Shown here: one piece after another, positions 1,595-39,357 of the stretch
How the letters are laid out: each line of letters begins with the position of its first letter
How positions within the stretch are numbered: the stretch's first letter is position 1
DNA from: Sulfurospirillum multivorans DSM 12446
GTDB lineage: Bacteria > Campylobacterota > Campylobacteria > Campylobacterales > Sulfurospirillaceae
Assembly: GCF_000568815.1 (NCBI RefSeq)
Contig: NZ_CP007201.1
Span: 2,675,654 to 2,739,653 of the forward strand
Direction of reading: 5' to 3'
DNA length: 64,000 nucleotides
Position numbers and translations under genes: made by a program
The notes under the pieces: generated by a model
The model's input: the letters and a program-made list of their open reading frames with translations, nothing else
Databases searched by the model: none
Told to the model about the DNA's origin: nothing

Positions 1595-1668
1595 CTACCT
1601 CGCAAGAGGCAAGCTTTAGTGCCATAGCGGCTAGCGTAGGTGTTTGGGCTTTGCCTAAACGCCGTGTA
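1595..1668 (+). repeat. Structured intergenic repeat, copy A
   Basis: One of four related intergenic elements (others near 17505-17600, 25801-25885 and 27238-27302). It folds into three short hairpins: CCTC-gcaa-GAGG, GCC-atagc-GGC, and a terminal hairpin around GGCTTTGCC with stem GTTTGGG/CCTAAAC. It aligns with the reverse complement of the 27.2-kb copy over about 70 bases. It lies between a minus-strand gene and the LysE gene. Confidence 0.7.
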
Positions 1669-1735
1669 AAAATAGAGTTATAAGCCATTTTGGCTTACAA
1701 TACGGCATCTTAAATGCTTTAGCGAAGGACGTTTT

Positions 1736-2359
1736 ATGCAACTTGATATTTGGCTTACGATGCTGGTCGCATCCATTCTCATCAGTGTTTCCCCAGGAGC
1801 AGGTGCGGTGGTTTCTATGAATTATGGACTCAAATACGGGCTCAAACGCTCTTATGCCGCCATTATGGGGCTTCAAATGGGGCTTTTTGTGCAAACCTTT
1901 GTGGTCGTCATTGGACTTGGCTCACTGATTATGAGCTCACTTCTGCTGTTTAACATCATCAAGTGGATTGGTGTGATTTATTTGATCTTTTTAGGGGTGA
2001 TGAAGTTCATTGAAAAACCTCAATTGCCAAGTGATGCCGCCAATATCAAAGCATTTTCAGCGTCCAAAGCGTTTGTTCAAGCCACGCTCATTAACCTCAC
2101 CAACATCAAAGCAACAGTCTTTTTGGTGGCGTTTATCCCCCAATTCCTCAACCCAAATGAGCCGCTTTTAGGGCAATTTGTCATCATCTGTTCCACACTC
2201 ATTGGCGTGGACATCATCGTGATGACAGGCTACAGCTCCCTTGCTTCACGCCTTAAAAACGTCATCAAATCCATTCGCGCAATTCAGATTCAAAACCGCC
2301 TAACAGGCGCTTTTTTACTCGTAGCAGCCTTTTTTATCTCAACCGCAAAAAGGGCTTAA
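1736..2359 (+). CDS. LysE/RhtB family amino-acid exporter
   Basis: A 207-residue integral membrane protein with about six hydrophobic segments. Its N-terminal stretch (SPGAGAVVSMNYGLKYG) matches the conserved SPGPNxxxVxxxGxxxG region of LysE/RhtB exporters, which expel amino acids or derivatives by proton exchange. The usual length is about 205-210, so the gene is complete. GAAGGA precedes the ATG by six bases. The gene stands alone behind repeat copy A and ends four bases into the convergent ArsC-like gene. The substrate cannot be told from sequence. Confidence 0.85.
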   Translation: MQLDIWLTMLVASILISVSPGAGAVVSMNYGLKYGLKRSYAAIMGLQMGLFVQTFVVVIGLGSLIMSSLLLFNIIKWIGVIYLIFLGVMKFIEKPQLPSDAANIKAFSASKAFVQATLINLTNIKATVFLVAFIPQFLNPNEPLLGQFVIICSTLIGVDIIVMTGYSSLASRLKNVIKSIRAIQIQNRLTGAFLLVAAFFISTAKRA

Positions 2360-2697
2360 GCGAACGTCTTGGCGTAAACCTCTTCATCAAATCCCACCAA
2401 AAGCGTTCCATCTTCGCACTCGACGATGGGGCGTTTGAAGAGGAGTTGCTCTCTTAAAAGCCAGCTTTTCTTCGCTTCATCGCTGATCTCTTTGGTCAGG
2501 TTCAACGTCTTAAACTTTGTGCCTTTGGTGTTAAAAAGGATGGAAAGAGGTTTTTTGGATAGCCACTCTTCCAGTTTTGCTTCGCTGATTGCAGTGGTTT
2601 TAAGATCGACAAAACTGTAAGGAACGACCTTCTCTTTAAAAAACGAAATGGCTTTTTTCACACTGCCACATGTGGTAATGCCGTAGACTTTAATCAT
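2356..2697 (-). CDS. ArsC/Spx-family thioredoxin-fold protein
   Basis: A 113-residue protein of the ArsC/Spx/YffB family. The N-terminus reads YGITTCGSVKKA, with the single family cysteine near residue 10 in a TTCGS context, followed by the family FxDLKTT and KKPLSILFNTKGTKFK regions. It lacks the further cysteines of thioredoxin-coupled ArsC, so arsenate reduction is not established; YffB-like proteins in this family are of unclear function. The start overlaps the diguanylate cyclase stop (ATGA), implying translational coupling with it. Confidence 0.8.
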   Translation of the reverse strand: MIKVYGITTCGSVKKAISFFKEKVVPYSFVDLKTTAISEAKLEEWLSKKPLSILFNTKGTKFKTLNLTKEISDEAKKSWLLREQLLFKRPIVECEDGTLLVGFDEEVYAKTFA

Positions 2698-4811
2698 TCT
2701 AACTCCTCATAAAATTCAATGCGGTTGCGCCCTTTTTGTTTGGCAAGGTACATCGCCTTATCGGCTTCGCTAAAAACACGCTCTTTGTTAGATGAATGTT
2801 GGCTAAAAAGCGAAATACCAATGCTTACACTACACTCATGCGTAATGACGCGCAAATCTTCTTCAACATCGAGCACAAGTACATACGGAGCGTTTACATG
2901 TAAACGAATTTTACCTGCAACTTTCAGTGCTTCTGCTTTGGCGACACTCTCCTCTTCCCCCAAATCACGCAGGGCTACCAAAAACTCATCGCCACCAAAA
3001 CGTGCCACTAAGTCTACCTCTCGGACACAGGCACGAATCCTTTTTCCCACTTCGATCAACAACAGATCACCTGCATTGTGACCATAGGTATCGTTGAGCG
3101 GTTTAAAATTATCAAGATCAAGCACCAACAATGCCCCATGTTTTTGCATGCGTTTGGCATGGGCTATCATCGTAGCAAACGTTTCATGAAACATCCTTCG
3201 ATTGGGCAGATGCGTCAAGGAGTCATGGTACGCAAGCTCTTTGATCAGCTCTTCACTCTTTTTGCGCTCTGTAATATCCGTCGAAATGCCACACAAACCG
3301 TAAATGACTCCCTCTTCGTTGTAAAGAGGAATTTTTGTCGAGATACACGTGATCGTTGTGGCGTGATCCTTAAGCACAAACGTATCTTCAGAGGTTCTCT
3401 TATGCCCAAAATGGATCACCTCTTCGTCTATTTTACGAATCATCTACGTTGTTTTGGCATTAAAAAAGAGCTCATCGTTTTGCCCTATGATCTTCTCAGG
3501 GCTCATTCCCAAATGCTCGCAAGCTCTTTTGTTGGCATACGCATAACGATACTGGACATCTTTAATGTAAATAAACGCATCAACGCTGTCTAAAATCGTA
3601 TTGAGTTTGGCTTCACTTTGCATCAACCCTTTGGTGCGTTCTTGGATTTTTTCTTCGAGGGCTACATTATTCGTGCGTATGTAAGCGATCATTTTGATGA
3701 ACTCTTGGGAAAGCGCTTCAATTTCAGCACTGCCTAAAGGGGCGAGATCCACCTCATAGTTACCTTTTTCAACCCGTTGCATGGAGGATTTTAGTTTTTC
3801 AAGAGGAGCGATGATTAAAAAATGCAACGCCCCTGCGACAAAGATTAAAATCACTAAAAAGAGCAGACAAAGTATCGGGAAAATCGAAAAATCCTTGGCG
3901 ATTTCCAGCTCTTTTTCATCAATAAGCGTCAAATTGAACCATTCAACCTCTTGGAGAAAACTCATCCCCAAGAGTTTTTTCGACCCTTCATACTCAACCC
4001 AAAAGGTACGAATGTCATCAGGATGAGCACGAAGATACAGTATCGCATCACGAATGGCATCTTTATCTTCCGCCCTTGTGAAAAACTCCGTAATTTTTTT
4101 ATGCCCACCAGCGTTTGTTTTGAGGTTTTCATCGTATTTCAGATGGGTATCTCGCTCTAATTGAACATCTAAGTGGCGGTTGATAAAAAAGTTTCGCACC
4201 CCCTCTTGCTCAATGCCCACCGATTCTCTCACAAAGCGGGTAAAATCCAGTCCTGTTCCAACAATGCCTAAGAGTTCACCGTTTTCTTTTAAATCATAAT
4301 TGATCCAAATGTACGTCGTACCCAAAAATTCATCGGTATCAACATTGATGCGGTAGGCTTGATTGTCGCTCAAAACATCGTAAAACCATGCGTCATTTTT
4401 TTGGCTTGAGGAGAGTTTGTACTGAAACTGTTTGCCAGCATAACTGTTCTTGGCATCATTGAAGTAGTAATTTTCACTTTTGGTAAACGCTGCAAAATAG
4501 CTTTGGCTCTGAAATTTTAAACGATACGCCTCTAAAACAGCGATGCCATTCGTATGTAACAGCGGGTCTTTATCACGATGTGCCATAGCAAGCAGTGCGG
4601 GCTCTTTGGCCATCTCTTTGATAATCTCAAGCTCATGCACAAGCGGTAAAAGCGTGCGATTTTTATCAAAAAGAATCTGTTTTTTGATAAAACGCTCTGC
4701 CCATTTTTCATTGATCTGCTCTAACACATGCTTAGAATATGACCAAACCGTAAGCGAAAAGAGGATAAACAAAGCAGTCATAAAGATAAAAAGTTTTACT
4801 TTGAGACTCAT
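2694..4811 (-). pseudogene. dCache-HAMP-PAS-GGDEF diguanylate cyclase interrupted by an in-frame TAG
   Basis: One reading frame is split by a single TAG at 3444-3446. The upstream part has an N-terminal membrane segment, a periplasmic dCache-like sensor of about 270 residues, a second membrane segment, HAMP and the first half of a PAS domain. The downstream part starts with ATG immediately after the stop, finishes the PAS domain (GISTDITERK) and carries GGDEF. The active site (FGGDEF) and the inhibitory RxxD (REVD, five residues before GGDEF) are intact. ATG at 4811 is preferred because GAGAGGG precedes it. The TAG may be a true nonsense mutation, an error, or a split gene with restart at the adjacent ATG. 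Confidence 0.8.
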
Positions 4812-34312: not shown

Positions 34313-34350
34313 AAATTATTAGCTTCTAAAAACCTCTACACTAGAAAAAA

Positions 34351-34437
34351 TGACCCATTTTCTAAATACTTGGGTAAAATAATAAAAAAATTACCCACGT
34401 TTGTAATACTTGGGTAATTTGCTACAAAAATGACGCA
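34351..34437. promoter_or_regulatory. 40-bp-periodic operator array before fic
   Basis: Five 7-base half-sites start exactly 20 bases apart in alternating orientation: TGACCCA (34351), TGGGTAA (34371), TTACCCA (34391), TGGGTAA (34411) and TGACGCA (34431). This is two and a half copies of a 40-bp repeat. It ends 16 bases before the fic start codon. The pair TTACCC(A/C)-N13-(T/G)GGGTAA recurs before hsdR. Confidence 0.75.
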
Positions 34438-34452
34438 CATCAAAGGGGTTTC

Positions 34453-35532
34453 ATGGCTGATGAGTACATACCCGCACCGCTTCCGCTCACCATAGAGCTA
34501 GAGACAAAAGCAATTCTTAAAAAAGTCATCAGCGCTAACCGTGCCTTAGCCGAACTCAAAGGTGTGGCGAACTCCATCCCCAATCAGCACATCTTGATCA
34601 ATGCCCTCTCGTTGCAAGAAGCCAAAGACTCTTCGGAGATTGAAAATATCATTACCACGCACGATGAATTGTACCGTGCGAGTGTGAGCAGTGTAGCTAT
34701 TTCACAGCAAGCCAAAGAGGTGCAACGCTACCGCGAAGCACTTTATACTGGGTTTTCACTGATTGGGGAGCATCGTTTATTGCTTAAAAAACATATCATC
34801 GAGATTCAAAAAGTGTTAGAGGGCAATGATGCAGGTATGCGCTCACAAAGCGGAACGGTGCTTAAAAATGAACAGAGCGGCGAAGTCGTTTTTATGCCAC
34901 CGCAAAATCCACAAACCATCCATGAGCTGATGGATAATTTGGAGCAGTACATCAACACGCCCAAGCTCGATGACCTTGATGCGCTCATCAAAATGGCGAT
35001 AGTGCATTATCAGTTTGAAGCGATTCACCCTTTTTACGATGGCAACGGACGAACGGGGCGCATCGTCAACATCCTTTTCCTGATGCTCAGTGGACTTTTA
35101 GATATACCCATTTTGTACCTTAGCTCTCACATCATCAAAAACAAGTCGGAGTATTACCGTCTTTTAAGAGCCGTGAGTAGCGAGGGCGCATGGCAAGAGT
35201 GGGTGCTTTATATGCTTGAGGGCGTAGAGCAAACAGCACAAAAGAGCATCGTGCTTATCAATGCTATCAATACAACGATGCAAGAGAGCAAAGAGATTAT
35301 TTTAAAAGCCTTGCCAAAACTCTACTCTAAAGAGTTGTTGGAGTTACTTTTCAAACACCCCTACACCAAAATCAACTTTTTAGTCGAAGAGCTTGGCATC
35401 ACACGCAAAACTGCTACAAACTACCTCAAAGCGTTGGAAGAAATAGGCATATTGGCAAGTGAAAAAAAAGGAAGGGAAGTCTATTTTATTAATAAACGTT
35501 TGTTTGAACTACTTAAAAATAGTAGCATCTAA
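34453..35532 (+). CDS. Fic-domain protein (candidate AMP-transferase), class II
   Basis: 359 residues. The Fic motif HPFYDGNGRTGR (about residue 196) matches HPFx(D/E)GNGRxxR, so transfer of AMP to a target is plausible. The N-terminal helix holds SSEIEN at residues 60-65, matching the (S/T)xxxE(G/N) self-inhibiting motif. A C-terminal winged-helix part (VEELGITRKTATNYLKALEEIG) may bind DNA. AAAGGGG precedes the ATG. It is followed by rhuM after nine bases and hsdR, a gene set usually found inside type I restriction loci. Confidence 0.88.
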   Translation: MADEYIPAPLPLTIELETKAILKKVISANRALAELKGVANSIPNQHILINALSLQEAKDSSEIENIITTHDELYRASVSSVAISQQAKEVQRYREALYTGFSLIGEHRLLLKKHIIEIQKVLEGNDAGMRSQSGTVLKNEQSGEVVFMPPQNPQTIHELMDNLEQYINTPKLDDLDALIKMAIVHYQFEAIHPFYDGNGRTGRIVNILFLMLSGLLDIPILYLSSHIIKNKSEYYRLLRAVSSEGAWQEWVLYMLEGVEQTAQKSIVLINAINTTMQESKEIILKALPKLYSKELLELLFKHPYTKINFLVEELGITRKTATNYLKALEEIGILASEKKGREVYFINKRLFELLKNSSI

Positions 35533-35541
35533 GGAAACTCT

Positions 35542-36474
35542 ATGGAAAAAAACAATCTTATCATTTACAACACCGTCGATGGCAAAACATCGGTATCACT
35601 CTTAGCTAAAGAGAGCACCGCATGGATGAGTCAAAACCAACTTGCGGAGCTTTTTGCGACATCTGTACCCAACATGAGTATGCACATCTCCAACATATTT
35701 AAAGAGGGTGAGCTTGAGCGAAATTCAGTTGTTAAGGATTACTTAACAACTGCCTCTGATGGTAAAAATTACAGTGTCTCTTTTTATGCCCTTGAGATGA
35801 TTTTAGCCATTGGGTTTCGGGTACGGAGCAAGCGAGGAACGCAATTTAGGCAATGGGCAAACAAAAACCTAGCTGAGTATATGGTCAAAGGTTTTGTGAT
35901 GGATGATGAGCGGTTGAAAAATCCAAACGGCAAGCCTGATTATTTTGATGAACTTTTAGAGCGCATTCGTGACATTCGTGCTTCTGAGAAACGGTTTTAC
36001 CAAAAAGTGCGCGATTTGTTTATGCTGAGCAGTGATTATGACAAGAGCGATAAAGCGACACAGCTTTTCTTTGCCGATGCACAAGAGCCCAATATGGCAC
36101 TAACGCGTTTTAAAGGCTCCATCGTTCGTAAACAAGACATTTATATCTCAAAAAATTATTTGAATGCCGATGAGCTTGATAGCCTCAACCGTTTTGTTGT
36201 GGTCTTTTTAAAAACTGCCGAACTTCGTGCAAAAAATCGCCAAGAGATTACGATGGATTTTTGGAGAGAGAACATTGACCGTATCATCGAGTTTAATGAT
36301 AAAAAAGTGCTTCAAGGACATGGTAGTGTGAGCCATCCCAAAATGGTAAAAGTTGCTGATGCGGTTTATGAAACATTTGATGCCAATCGTAAAGTCATCG
36401 AAGCAAAACAAGCAGATGTGGATGATATGGAAGAGCTTAAGCAGATAGAAGCAAAAGTTAAGAAACGAATATAG
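35542..36474 (+). CDS. RhuM-family protein
   Basis: 310 residues of the RhuM family, named from a Salmonella pathogenicity-island gene and common in type I restriction loci; the biochemical role is unknown. The N-terminal half (STAWMSQNQLAELFATSVPNMSMHI) has a helix-turn-helix look, suggesting DNA binding. FRVRSKRGTQFRQWANKNL is the family's best-kept stretch. AAGGAAA precedes the ATG nine bases after fic. It may be the ligand of the nearby TTACCC operators. Confidence 0.85.
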   Translation: MEKNNLIIYNTVDGKTSVSLLAKESTAWMSQNQLAELFATSVPNMSMHISNIFKEGELERNSVVKDYLTTASDGKNYSVSFYALEMILAIGFRVRSKRGTQFRQWANKNLAEYMVKGFVMDDERLKNPNGKPDYFDELLERIRDIRASEKRFYQKVRDLFMLSSDYDKSDKATQLFFADAQEPNMALTRFKGSIVRKQDIYISKNYLNADELDSLNRFVVVFLKTAELRAKNRQEITMDFWRENIDRIIEFNDKKVLQGHGSVSHPKMVKVADAVYETFDANRKVIEAKQADVDDMEELKQIEAKVKKRI

Positions 36475-36491: not shown

Positions 36492-36518
36492 TTACCCCTA
36501 TTTTGAAGATAGGGGTAA
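36492..36518. promoter_or_regulatory. Operator-like inverted repeat before hsdR
   Basis: TTACCCCTAT and ATAGGGGTAA form a 10-bp perfect inverted repeat with a seven-base centre. The half-sites TTACCCC and GGGGTAA start 20 bases apart, exactly the spacing of the array before fic. It lies 23 bases before the hsdR ATG. Confidence 0.6.
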
Positions 36519-36540
36519 AATCTTGAAAAAAGAAGAGCCG

Positions 36541-39357
36541 ATGAATCAAACCCAGAGTGAAGCCATCTTAGAAGAAAATCTCATTACGCAACTGGTGGGA
36601 CTAGGCTATGAAAAAGTCACCATAAACGATGACAAAGCACTCGAAGCCAATCTTAAAAGCCAACTGGAAAAACGCAACCAAACGACTTTTAGCGAAATGG
36701 AGTTCAAACGCATTCTCAACCATCTTTCCAAAAACTCTATCTTCGATAAAGCCAAAACACTACGCGATAAATTTAACTTAGAAAGAGATGATGGCACGAT
36801 CAAATATGTGGAGTTTTTAGACTCGGAGCGCTGGTGTCAAAACCTGTTTCAAGTCACGAACCAAGTCAGTGTTGAGGGTATGTATAAGACACGGTACGAT
36901 GTCACTTTACTCATCAACGGCTTTCCGTTGGTGCAAATCGAACTCAAACGAAGAGGCTTGGAGCTTAAGCTTAAAGAGGCGTTTAACCAAACCAACCGTT
37001 ACCAACGACACTCGTATGGTTTTAACAGTGCTCTGTTTCAGTACATTCAGATTTTTGTTATCAGCAATGGGGTCAATACCAAATACTACTCCAACAACAA
37101 AAAGCAGACCTTCAAACAGACCTTCTTTTGGGCGGATGTGGACAATAAAAATATCACCAACTTAGAAGAGTTTACCCAAAGCTTTTTAGAACGATGCCAC
37201 ATCTCCAAGATGATCTGCAAGTACATCGTTTTAGCCGAAGCGAAAAAGATACTCATGGTGCTACGACCTTACCAGTTTTACGCTGTTGAAGCCATCATCA
37301 GCCGTGTGAAAGAGACCGACAAAAACGGCTACATCTGGCACACGACAGGCAGTGGAAAAACACTCACTTCGTTTAAAACAGCCCAAATTTTAACGCAAAT
37401 GCCAGAAGTGCATAAAGTCGTTTTTGTAGTCGATAGAAAAGACCTTGACATTCAAACCACTAAAAAGTTTAACTCGTTTTCCAATGGCTCGGTTGATGGC
37501 ACAGACAATACGGGGAAATTGGTCACGCAATTTTGCGATGAGACAAAACTCATCGTCACAACCATCCAAAAGCTTAATAGCGCCATCAGCAAGAAAAACC
37601 ACCTTGAAAAGATGGAAAATCTCAAAGACAAACGCATCGTTTTTATCTTCGATGAATGCCACCGTTCTCAGTTTGGGCAAACGCACAAAAGCATCAACAA
37701 ATTCTTTACATGTAATCAAATGATAGGCTTTACGGGTACGCCCATTTTTGCTGAAAATGCGGTGAGTAATGAACTTGGTAAACGAACGACCAAAGAGCTT
37801 TTTGATGAACGACTGCACAAATATGTCATCACCGATGAGAATGTTTTGAAGTTTTCCATAGAGTATATTGGAAGGTACAGCGAAAAGCACAACAGTGCAA
37901 CCAACATCGACATTGAAGTTGAGAGCATTGACACCAAAGAGTTGCTTGAAAGCGATGAGCGCATTGGGAAAATAACTGATTATATCATCGCGCACCATGA
38001 CCGAAAAACTCACGCAAAAGAATTTACTGCGATGATGTGTGTGAGCAGTGTGGATATGCTCATCAAATACTACGAAACCTTTAAAGCCAAAAAACACAAC
38101 CTCAAAATCGCCACGATTTTCTCTTACAGTGCCAACGAAGAAGACAAAGATGCCAATGGCATTTATGAGATTGATGAAAGCGATGGTGCGTATGTAGATG
38201 AAGCGCACATCAACAAACACAGTCGTGAAAAACTGGATGAATTCATCAAAGATTATAATGCGATGTTTGGCACCAAATACAGCACCAAAGATAGCCAAAA
38301 TTTTTACAACTACTACAACGACATTTCAAAAAAAGTGAAAAACAGAGATATAGACATCTTACTCGTGGTCAATATGTTTTTAACAGGCTTCGATAGCCCA
38401 AGCCTCAATACGATGTATGTCGATAAAAACCTACGATACCACGGGCTCATTCAAGCCTTTTCACGCACAAACAGAACACTCAGTGAAGAAAAATCGCAAG
38501 GAAATATCGTCTGTTTTAGAAACCTCAAAAAAAATACCGACGAAGCCATCGCGCTTTTTTCCAACATCGATGCTAAAGAGATTATCTTGATGAAGCCATA
38601 TGAGGAGTATGTGGCGAAGTTTAACGAGGCATTTGCAGAGCTTTTAAAAATCGCCCCAAGTGTTGCCAGTGTCGATGCACTTGTGGATGAAGAAGAAAAA
38701 TTGGCATTTGTCAAAGCGTTTCGAGCGTTGATGCGCCTCAAAAATATACTGGTTGGATTTAGTGATTTTAAATGGTCGGATGTATCAATGCGCGCACAAG
38801 CGTTTGAGGACTATAAGTCCAAATACCTCGATATGTACGATGCGACGCGCGCGAAAAAAGAGAAAGTCTCCATCCTTGAAGATGTGGATTTTGAATTAGA
38901 GCTTATTGTTACCGATGAGATCAACGTCGCTTATATTTTGAAGTTACTGGGCAAATACAAAAATGCGACCACGGAAGAGCAACAAAAACAAAAAGAAGCC
39001 CTTATCAAGACCATCAGTGGCACGGTTCAACTCAGAAGCAAACGAGAACTCATCGAAAAATTTATCAACGACCATTTGATGCACATAGACGATAATGACG
39101 AAATCGAAAATGCGTTTGAAATCTTTTGGGATGAAGAGAAGCTTAAAGCCTTTGATGCGTTGTGTAAGGATGAAAATCTTGTCAGCGATGAGCTTAAAAA
39201 AGTCATGGAAACGTACATCTACGATGAGCGAATCCCCCTAAAAGACGATGTGGCAAAAACGCTCAACGTCAAACCAAAACTCTTAGAGCGAAAAGTGATT
39301 TTACCGAGAGTTTTGGATAAAATCGTTGCATTTGTTGAGAAGTTTTATACATTTTAA
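36541..39357 (+). CDS. hsdR: Type I restriction enzyme R subunit
   Basis: 938 residues. Nuclease domain near 110-150 with [21 protein letters not shown] (D...ExK). Helicase part: [10 protein letters not shown] (Walker A), DECHRSQ (box II), GFTGTPIF (box III) and FSRTNRTL (box VI). The C-terminal helical domain is present, so the gene looks complete. Type I enzymes need HsdM and HsdS for modification and target recognition; neither is in the window, and the next genes are unrelated. ATG 36541 has AAGAAGAG upstream; a TTG at 36523 is also open. A palindrome copy lies at 37706. Confidence 0.9.

Follow-up and report, generated by a model that had tools for sequence, protein, structure and literature searches.

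The DNA considered here is a stretch of 64,000 nucleotides from Sulfurospirillum multivorans DSM 12446 (the window), in which a fic gene is preceded by an array of evenly spaced, inverted half-sites. The gene (34453..35532, + strand) encodes a 359-amino-acid SoFic-type class II Fic protein, the predicted binder of the array. The array, with predicted limits of 34345..34440 and no strand assigned, lies between the end of a GGDEF/EAL gene (34312) and the start of fic (34453). Direct reading of the sequence gives five half-sites of alternating orientation in exact 20-bp steps, with starts at 34351, 34371, 34391, 34411, and 34431. These are TGACCCA (half-site 1, 34351..34357, - strand), TGGGTAA (half-site 2, 34371..34377, + strand), TTACCCA (half-site 3, 34391..34397, - strand), TGGGTAA (half-site 4, 34411..34417, + strand), and TGACGCA (half-site 5, 34431..34437, - strand), those on the - strand being in reverse orientation. 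The last is directly 5′ of the ribosome-binding site, and 15 bp separate its end from the start of fic. A preliminary description had reported these five sites before fic at 34351-34437, together with a 40-bp period marked by AATACT before each TGGGTAA, and both observations hold. AATACT stands immediately 5′ of both TGGGTAA copies, and the period was recovered independently as two 40-nt copies that are 75% identical, a repeat search placing AAAAATGACCCA, AAAAATTACCCA, and AAAAATGACGCA at +0, +40, and +80.

Across the 3.18-Mb genome, the central pair, TTACCCA-N13-TGGGTAA, is recovered at this one place; allowing one mismatch adds just the adjacent pair of the same array. The array scores 4.5, against a maximum of 4.0 among about 300 Markov-resampled 350-bp stretches. 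Four Sulfurospirillum copies share it, and their invariant columns number 33 of 35 in the half-sites and 41 of 52 in the spacers; among these four close relatives the difference in conservation between half-sites and spacers is not significant (p=0.07). The DNA to the left of the first half-site is unrelated among the four, and homology of the Sulfurospirillum fic cassette starts near the left end of the array, which argues that the array is part of the cassette. In Sulfurospirillum sp. SCADC (L006/L089; G019:C5), the fic orthologue is broken into two pieces by an internal stop and the array is intact.

The preliminary description had staked its proposal on the presence of the array at orthologous genes. 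For this comparison 80 relatives and further family members were fetched, and about 350 bp on each side of fic were scanned for alternating half-sites with no sequence assumed. With 19-22-bp steps and a score of at least 4 as the array criterion, an alternating array is found directly before or after fic in 66 of 87 orthologous loci, as opposed to 1 of the 74 distant window pairs taken from these loci as controls; with six other step sets the score is reached in 0 to 6 of the 87. Three-site arrays peak at periods of 20 and 21 bp (23 and 10 loci upstream, 19 and 15 downstream), and every other period within 10-35 bp is represented by at most four loci. Inward-facing pairs are mainly 20 bp and outward-facing pairs mainly 21 bp apart, each about two helical turns, and steps of 18, 19, 22, and 23 bp are rare; one locus (L048) has eight identical sites exactly 21 bp apart. 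Arrays also recur in loci from other genomes gathered after the pattern was noticed. The period peak, the resampling score, and the counts in orthologues and controls together rule out a chance AT-rich repeat. Beyond the main array, the loci contain 9 extra pairs, compared with a mean of 4.6 (range 1-8) for letter-shuffled cores. A single array is thus the usual case for a locus, whereas in L029 and L045 fic is flanked by an array on each side.

In many genomes the array is immediately behind fic rather than before it. Twenty loci have a same-strand gene whose end is no more than 60 bp from fic, and in every one of them the array is downstream of fic. The inward spacers of downstream arrays contain -10-like elements at a rate of 0.23 in the forward direction and 0.04 in the reverse (115 spacers, p=7e-5; spacers of the same array are not independent). 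This operon-dependent placement and forward bias fit an operator at whatever promoter adjoins fic. According to mechanical open reading frame calls, the downstream array faces a convergent gene in L027, L033, L062, L078, L079, and L083. The neighbours of the arrays are diverse, which rules out type I restriction-modification genes as a constant partner, frequent as they are among them.

By its domains, motifs, and predicted fold, the window protein is placed among the SoFic-type class II Fic proteins, and enzymatic activity is predicted for it. Fic_N, the Fic core, and SoFic-like_C follow in order with Pfam scores far over the cut-offs, and the match to the PADLOC SoFic profile has an E-value of 1.5e-122. 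The catalytic motif HPFYDGNGRTGR fits HxFx(D/E)GNGRxxR and the N-terminal inhibitory motif SSEIEN fits (S/T)xxxE(G/N), almost every position of both being invariant across 32 orthologues. The structure model (mean predicted local distance difference test score 83.7) matches Shewanella SoFic 3zcn with a Z score of 40.1 and a root-mean-square deviation of 2.1 over 350 residues. The C-terminal winged helix, SoFic-like_C, comprises residues 276-350 (35278..35502, + strand). Its recognition helix, residues 318-330 (35404..35442, + strand), opens at R318-K319 in the model, with the specificity residue K319 encoded at 35407-35409.

The half-site sequence varies by lineage and tracks Fic residue 319, the second residue of the recognition helix. 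Helices with RKTA pair with the half-site ATGGGTAAA, RQTA with ATGTTAAAA, RLTA or RITA with ATGTATAGA, SRPTA or SRITA with ATGTAAAGA, HRE or HRD with ATGTCGAAA or ATACCGACA, and HRN with ATGCACAAG. When all 359 columns are ranked by their mutual information with the half-site core, 319 comes first, and the next two, 317 and 322, belong to the same region of the helix. To limit the influence of kinship, disjoint closest protein pairs were compared, their distances being computed on residues 1-275 alone. Where the two cores differ (43 pairs), column 319 is also different in 84%; where they agree (43 pairs), it differs in 19%. The gap is 0.65, against 0.35 for the next-best column (79% vs. 44%). 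Proteins about 90% identical over residues 1-275 switch residue and half-site jointly (L032/L042, L092/L019, L018/L036, and L033/L043). Among 20 later loci from other genomes with an array score of at least 3 and known residue contexts, 16 agree with the code by our own count. The array, its spacing, its conservation, and the link between half-site and helix are established by this comparative sequence analysis, which lends support to the earlier proposal of an operator array.

The same type of array is found in E. coli. Strains with a SoFic-type fic (L186, L187) have a long upstream array whose last site abuts the start codon; judged by eye, its steps are mainly 20 bp, with some of 10 bp. In L186 the array extends from about -169 to the start codon. 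The recognition helix there reads IAKRQTAS, and a 10/12 sigma-70 match falls within the array, about 1.6 such matches being expected by chance in that stretch. In L187 (E. coli S10; 1662-3962), the SoFic-type fic is frameshifted with its upstream array intact, a second Fic-family gene follows, and mobH and an integrase are nearby. An alternating array of 19-21-bp steps is also present at the fic stop codon in a second subfamily (L095-L099, L105), whose proteins are about 33% identical and carry a C-terminal helix-turn-helix (HTH) of their own. The other remote Fic proteins scanned gave array scores of 3.5 or lower. One of them, L104, carries a DeoR-like HTH and scored 1.5, so the presence of an HTH is not sufficient to predict an array.

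Taken together, these data point to Fic itself as the protein that recognizes the array. The half-site sequence follows Fic residue 319 and RhuM is absent beside most arrays, and the C-terminal winged helix of Fic is thus very probably the binder. We infer binding, cooperativity, and repression as follows. Each Fic dimer would place its C-terminal recognition helices in half-sites that lie on the same face of the DNA at a distance of two helical turns, and dimers side by side could occupy the whole regularly spaced series. The array extends over the promoter region as far as the ribosome-binding site, so that its occupancy would repress fic and, in the window, probably also rhuM and hsdR, which run in the same direction, in a negative feedback that would keep a toxic AMP-transferase scarce. 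Where fic is inside an operon, the array just behind it would most likely control the next gene. That the product of fic uses the array beside its gene as an operator, with negative feedback, we consider quite likely, and autorepression is likely to be its main function. The preliminary description held that such arrays keep toxic modules silent; this role is suggested by the overlap with promoter-like elements and by the precedent of CccR, a Fic protein of Yersinia pseudotuberculosis with a C-terminal HTH, which binds as a dimer to inverted repeats in its own promoter and is an autorepressor (PMC9755527).

Several observations weigh against this assignment. The + strand of the window array has no clear sigma-70 match. 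A role at a promoter is not evident for the minority of downstream arrays that face a convergent gene. The CccR operator is a single pair of 10-bp boxes, AGATAATCAT-N26-ATGATAATCT, rather than an even array. Of the 20 later loci in known residue contexts, four misfit the residue-to-half-site code (L154, L170, L176, and L146). Lastly, GTGTCGATA is the half-site of a large clade whose residue context, K317-R318-Q319, had not occurred in the first set; the one-residue rule that Q319 gives TTA fails for this clade, and the code must therefore be at least two residues wide.

An extension of this proposal is that the array acts as the DNA counterpart of an antitoxin. Assembled on the 20- or 21-bp half-sites beside its gene, Fic would be held by DNA in a de-AMPylating state in which its promoter is silenced and its toxicity restrained, until a phage attacks transcription or the chromosome and so releases it; the helix-to-site pairings would hold each Fic on its own array. 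We regard this as improbable. A related explanation, in our judgement rather doubtful, is that the array is an assembly platform that controls the enzyme, on which Fic is an inactive or de-AMPylating dimer until loss of the sites in phage infection frees active protein, with repression being secondary. Consistent with such a platform, DNA of at least 20 bp drives dimerization of Coxiella burnetii CbFic2 and stimulates its de-AMPylation, and the authors raise the same reading for CccR (PMC10628234); arrays behind fic that face convergent genes also fit simple operators poorly. However, placement depends on operon position and promoter-like elements are found inside arrays, as expected of operators, and the toxicity of CccR was little altered by a dimer mutation that abolished repression (PMC9755527).

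The preliminary description had named RhuM alongside the Fic C-terminal domain as a candidate binder, and had placed the array before a fic-rhuM unit. The rhuM gene does adjoin fic in the window, and binding by RhuM or another local regulator would account for the array without Fic. However, rhuM is absent beside most arrays, those of close Sulfurospirillum relatives included, and the half-site sequence tracks a residue of Fic. RhuM is ruled out as the array binder on the first of these grounds, and a local regulator other than Fic is very unlikely; the arrays follow fic, so the Fic half of the earlier proposal is supported and the RhuM half is not, and "before" is true in part, as arrays are often behind the gene. 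That the repeats are RNA hairpins serving as attenuators or processing sites, as inverted half-sites that can pair and co-change might suggest, is next to impossible, since hairpins would tolerate any phase, whereas the arrays seldom use steps of 18, 19, 22, or 23 bp, and since pairing leaves the covariation with a DNA-recognition helix unexplained.

Downstream of fic in the window are rhuM (35542..36474, + strand), likely co-transcribed with fic, and hsdR of a type I restriction system (36523..39357, + strand). Between them, 5′ of hsdR, is a possible second operator pair, TTACCCC-N13-GGGGTAA (36492..36518, no strand assigned), with the same 20-bp step. It forms a perfect palindrome, TTACCCCTAT-N7-ATAGGGGTAA, which on the - strand has the look of an intrinsic terminator as well. 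In L094 (genome G034), where fic is 94% identical, hsdR comes directly after fic; in the window, rhuM and the palindrome thus seem to have been inserted between these two genes. Neither hsdM nor hsdS is beside the window hsdR, and the sole N6_Mtase (HsdM-type) match in the genome is about 1.8 Mb off (C1:911155-912054), near a second hsdR (C1:907052). The window hsdR thus looks like an orphan.

The target sequence of the winged helix of SoFic-type Fic proteins had been open, and predicted sites are now available for dozens of loci in several phyla, including the SoFic-type gene of E. coli, which belongs to an anti-phage system that laboratories already work with. The residue-to-base code predicts site-switching mutants, and a link between DNA binding and AMPylation becomes directly testable. 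An AMPylating toxin as its own transcription factor suggests a simple means of silencing an abortive-infection enzyme. No description of the array or the code was found in the literature covered, which excluded most subscription papers and preprints.

Among known systems, CccR resembles the window protein in carrying a C-terminal HTH on a Fic enzyme. Its DNA-binding helices are 70.2 Å apart (PMC9755527), or about 20-21 bp of B-DNA, which matches the array step. Inverted half-sites at the gene's own promoter are likewise present for the window fic, and a match between the half-sites and the protein's own HTH is found indirectly, through the covariation with residue 319. However, CccR has low sequence similarity to SoFic and is a secreted type VI secretion system effector (PMC9755527), and its layout of 10-bp boxes with 26 bp between them is replaced here by 20- or 21-bp steps and three or more sites. 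The array is therefore not a CccR-type operator in layout, but by analogy it may work like one. SoFic (Shewanella SO_4266; E. coli Sofic, PMC12249575) belongs to the same family as the window protein by sequence and structure, and the E. coli gene shares the array type, upstream. The DNA binding of SoFic was stated to be undemonstrated in 2023 (PMC10628234). Toxicity, autoinhibition, and the small protein AS1 have been described for Sofic (PMC12249575); the published control of SoFic thus consists of autoinhibition and AS1, whereas an operator is predicted for the window fic. CbFic2 is likewise a class II protein with a C-terminal winged helix, which binds DNA and dimerizes on it; it is not known to prefer a specific sequence, and this DNA-driven dimerization is proposed to favour de-AMPylation (PMC10628234). 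It differs in having been studied as a histone-modifying effector, and the same authors call for work on the specific binding sequence (PMC10628234). Finally, autoregulated antitoxins and WYL defence regulators also bind inverted repeats in the local promoters of toxic or defence loci (AbiEi, PMC7319586; PMC9122601). In those systems the binder is an antitoxin or a dedicated regulator, whereas here the DNA-binding domain, with its predicted binding, is on the toxic enzyme itself.
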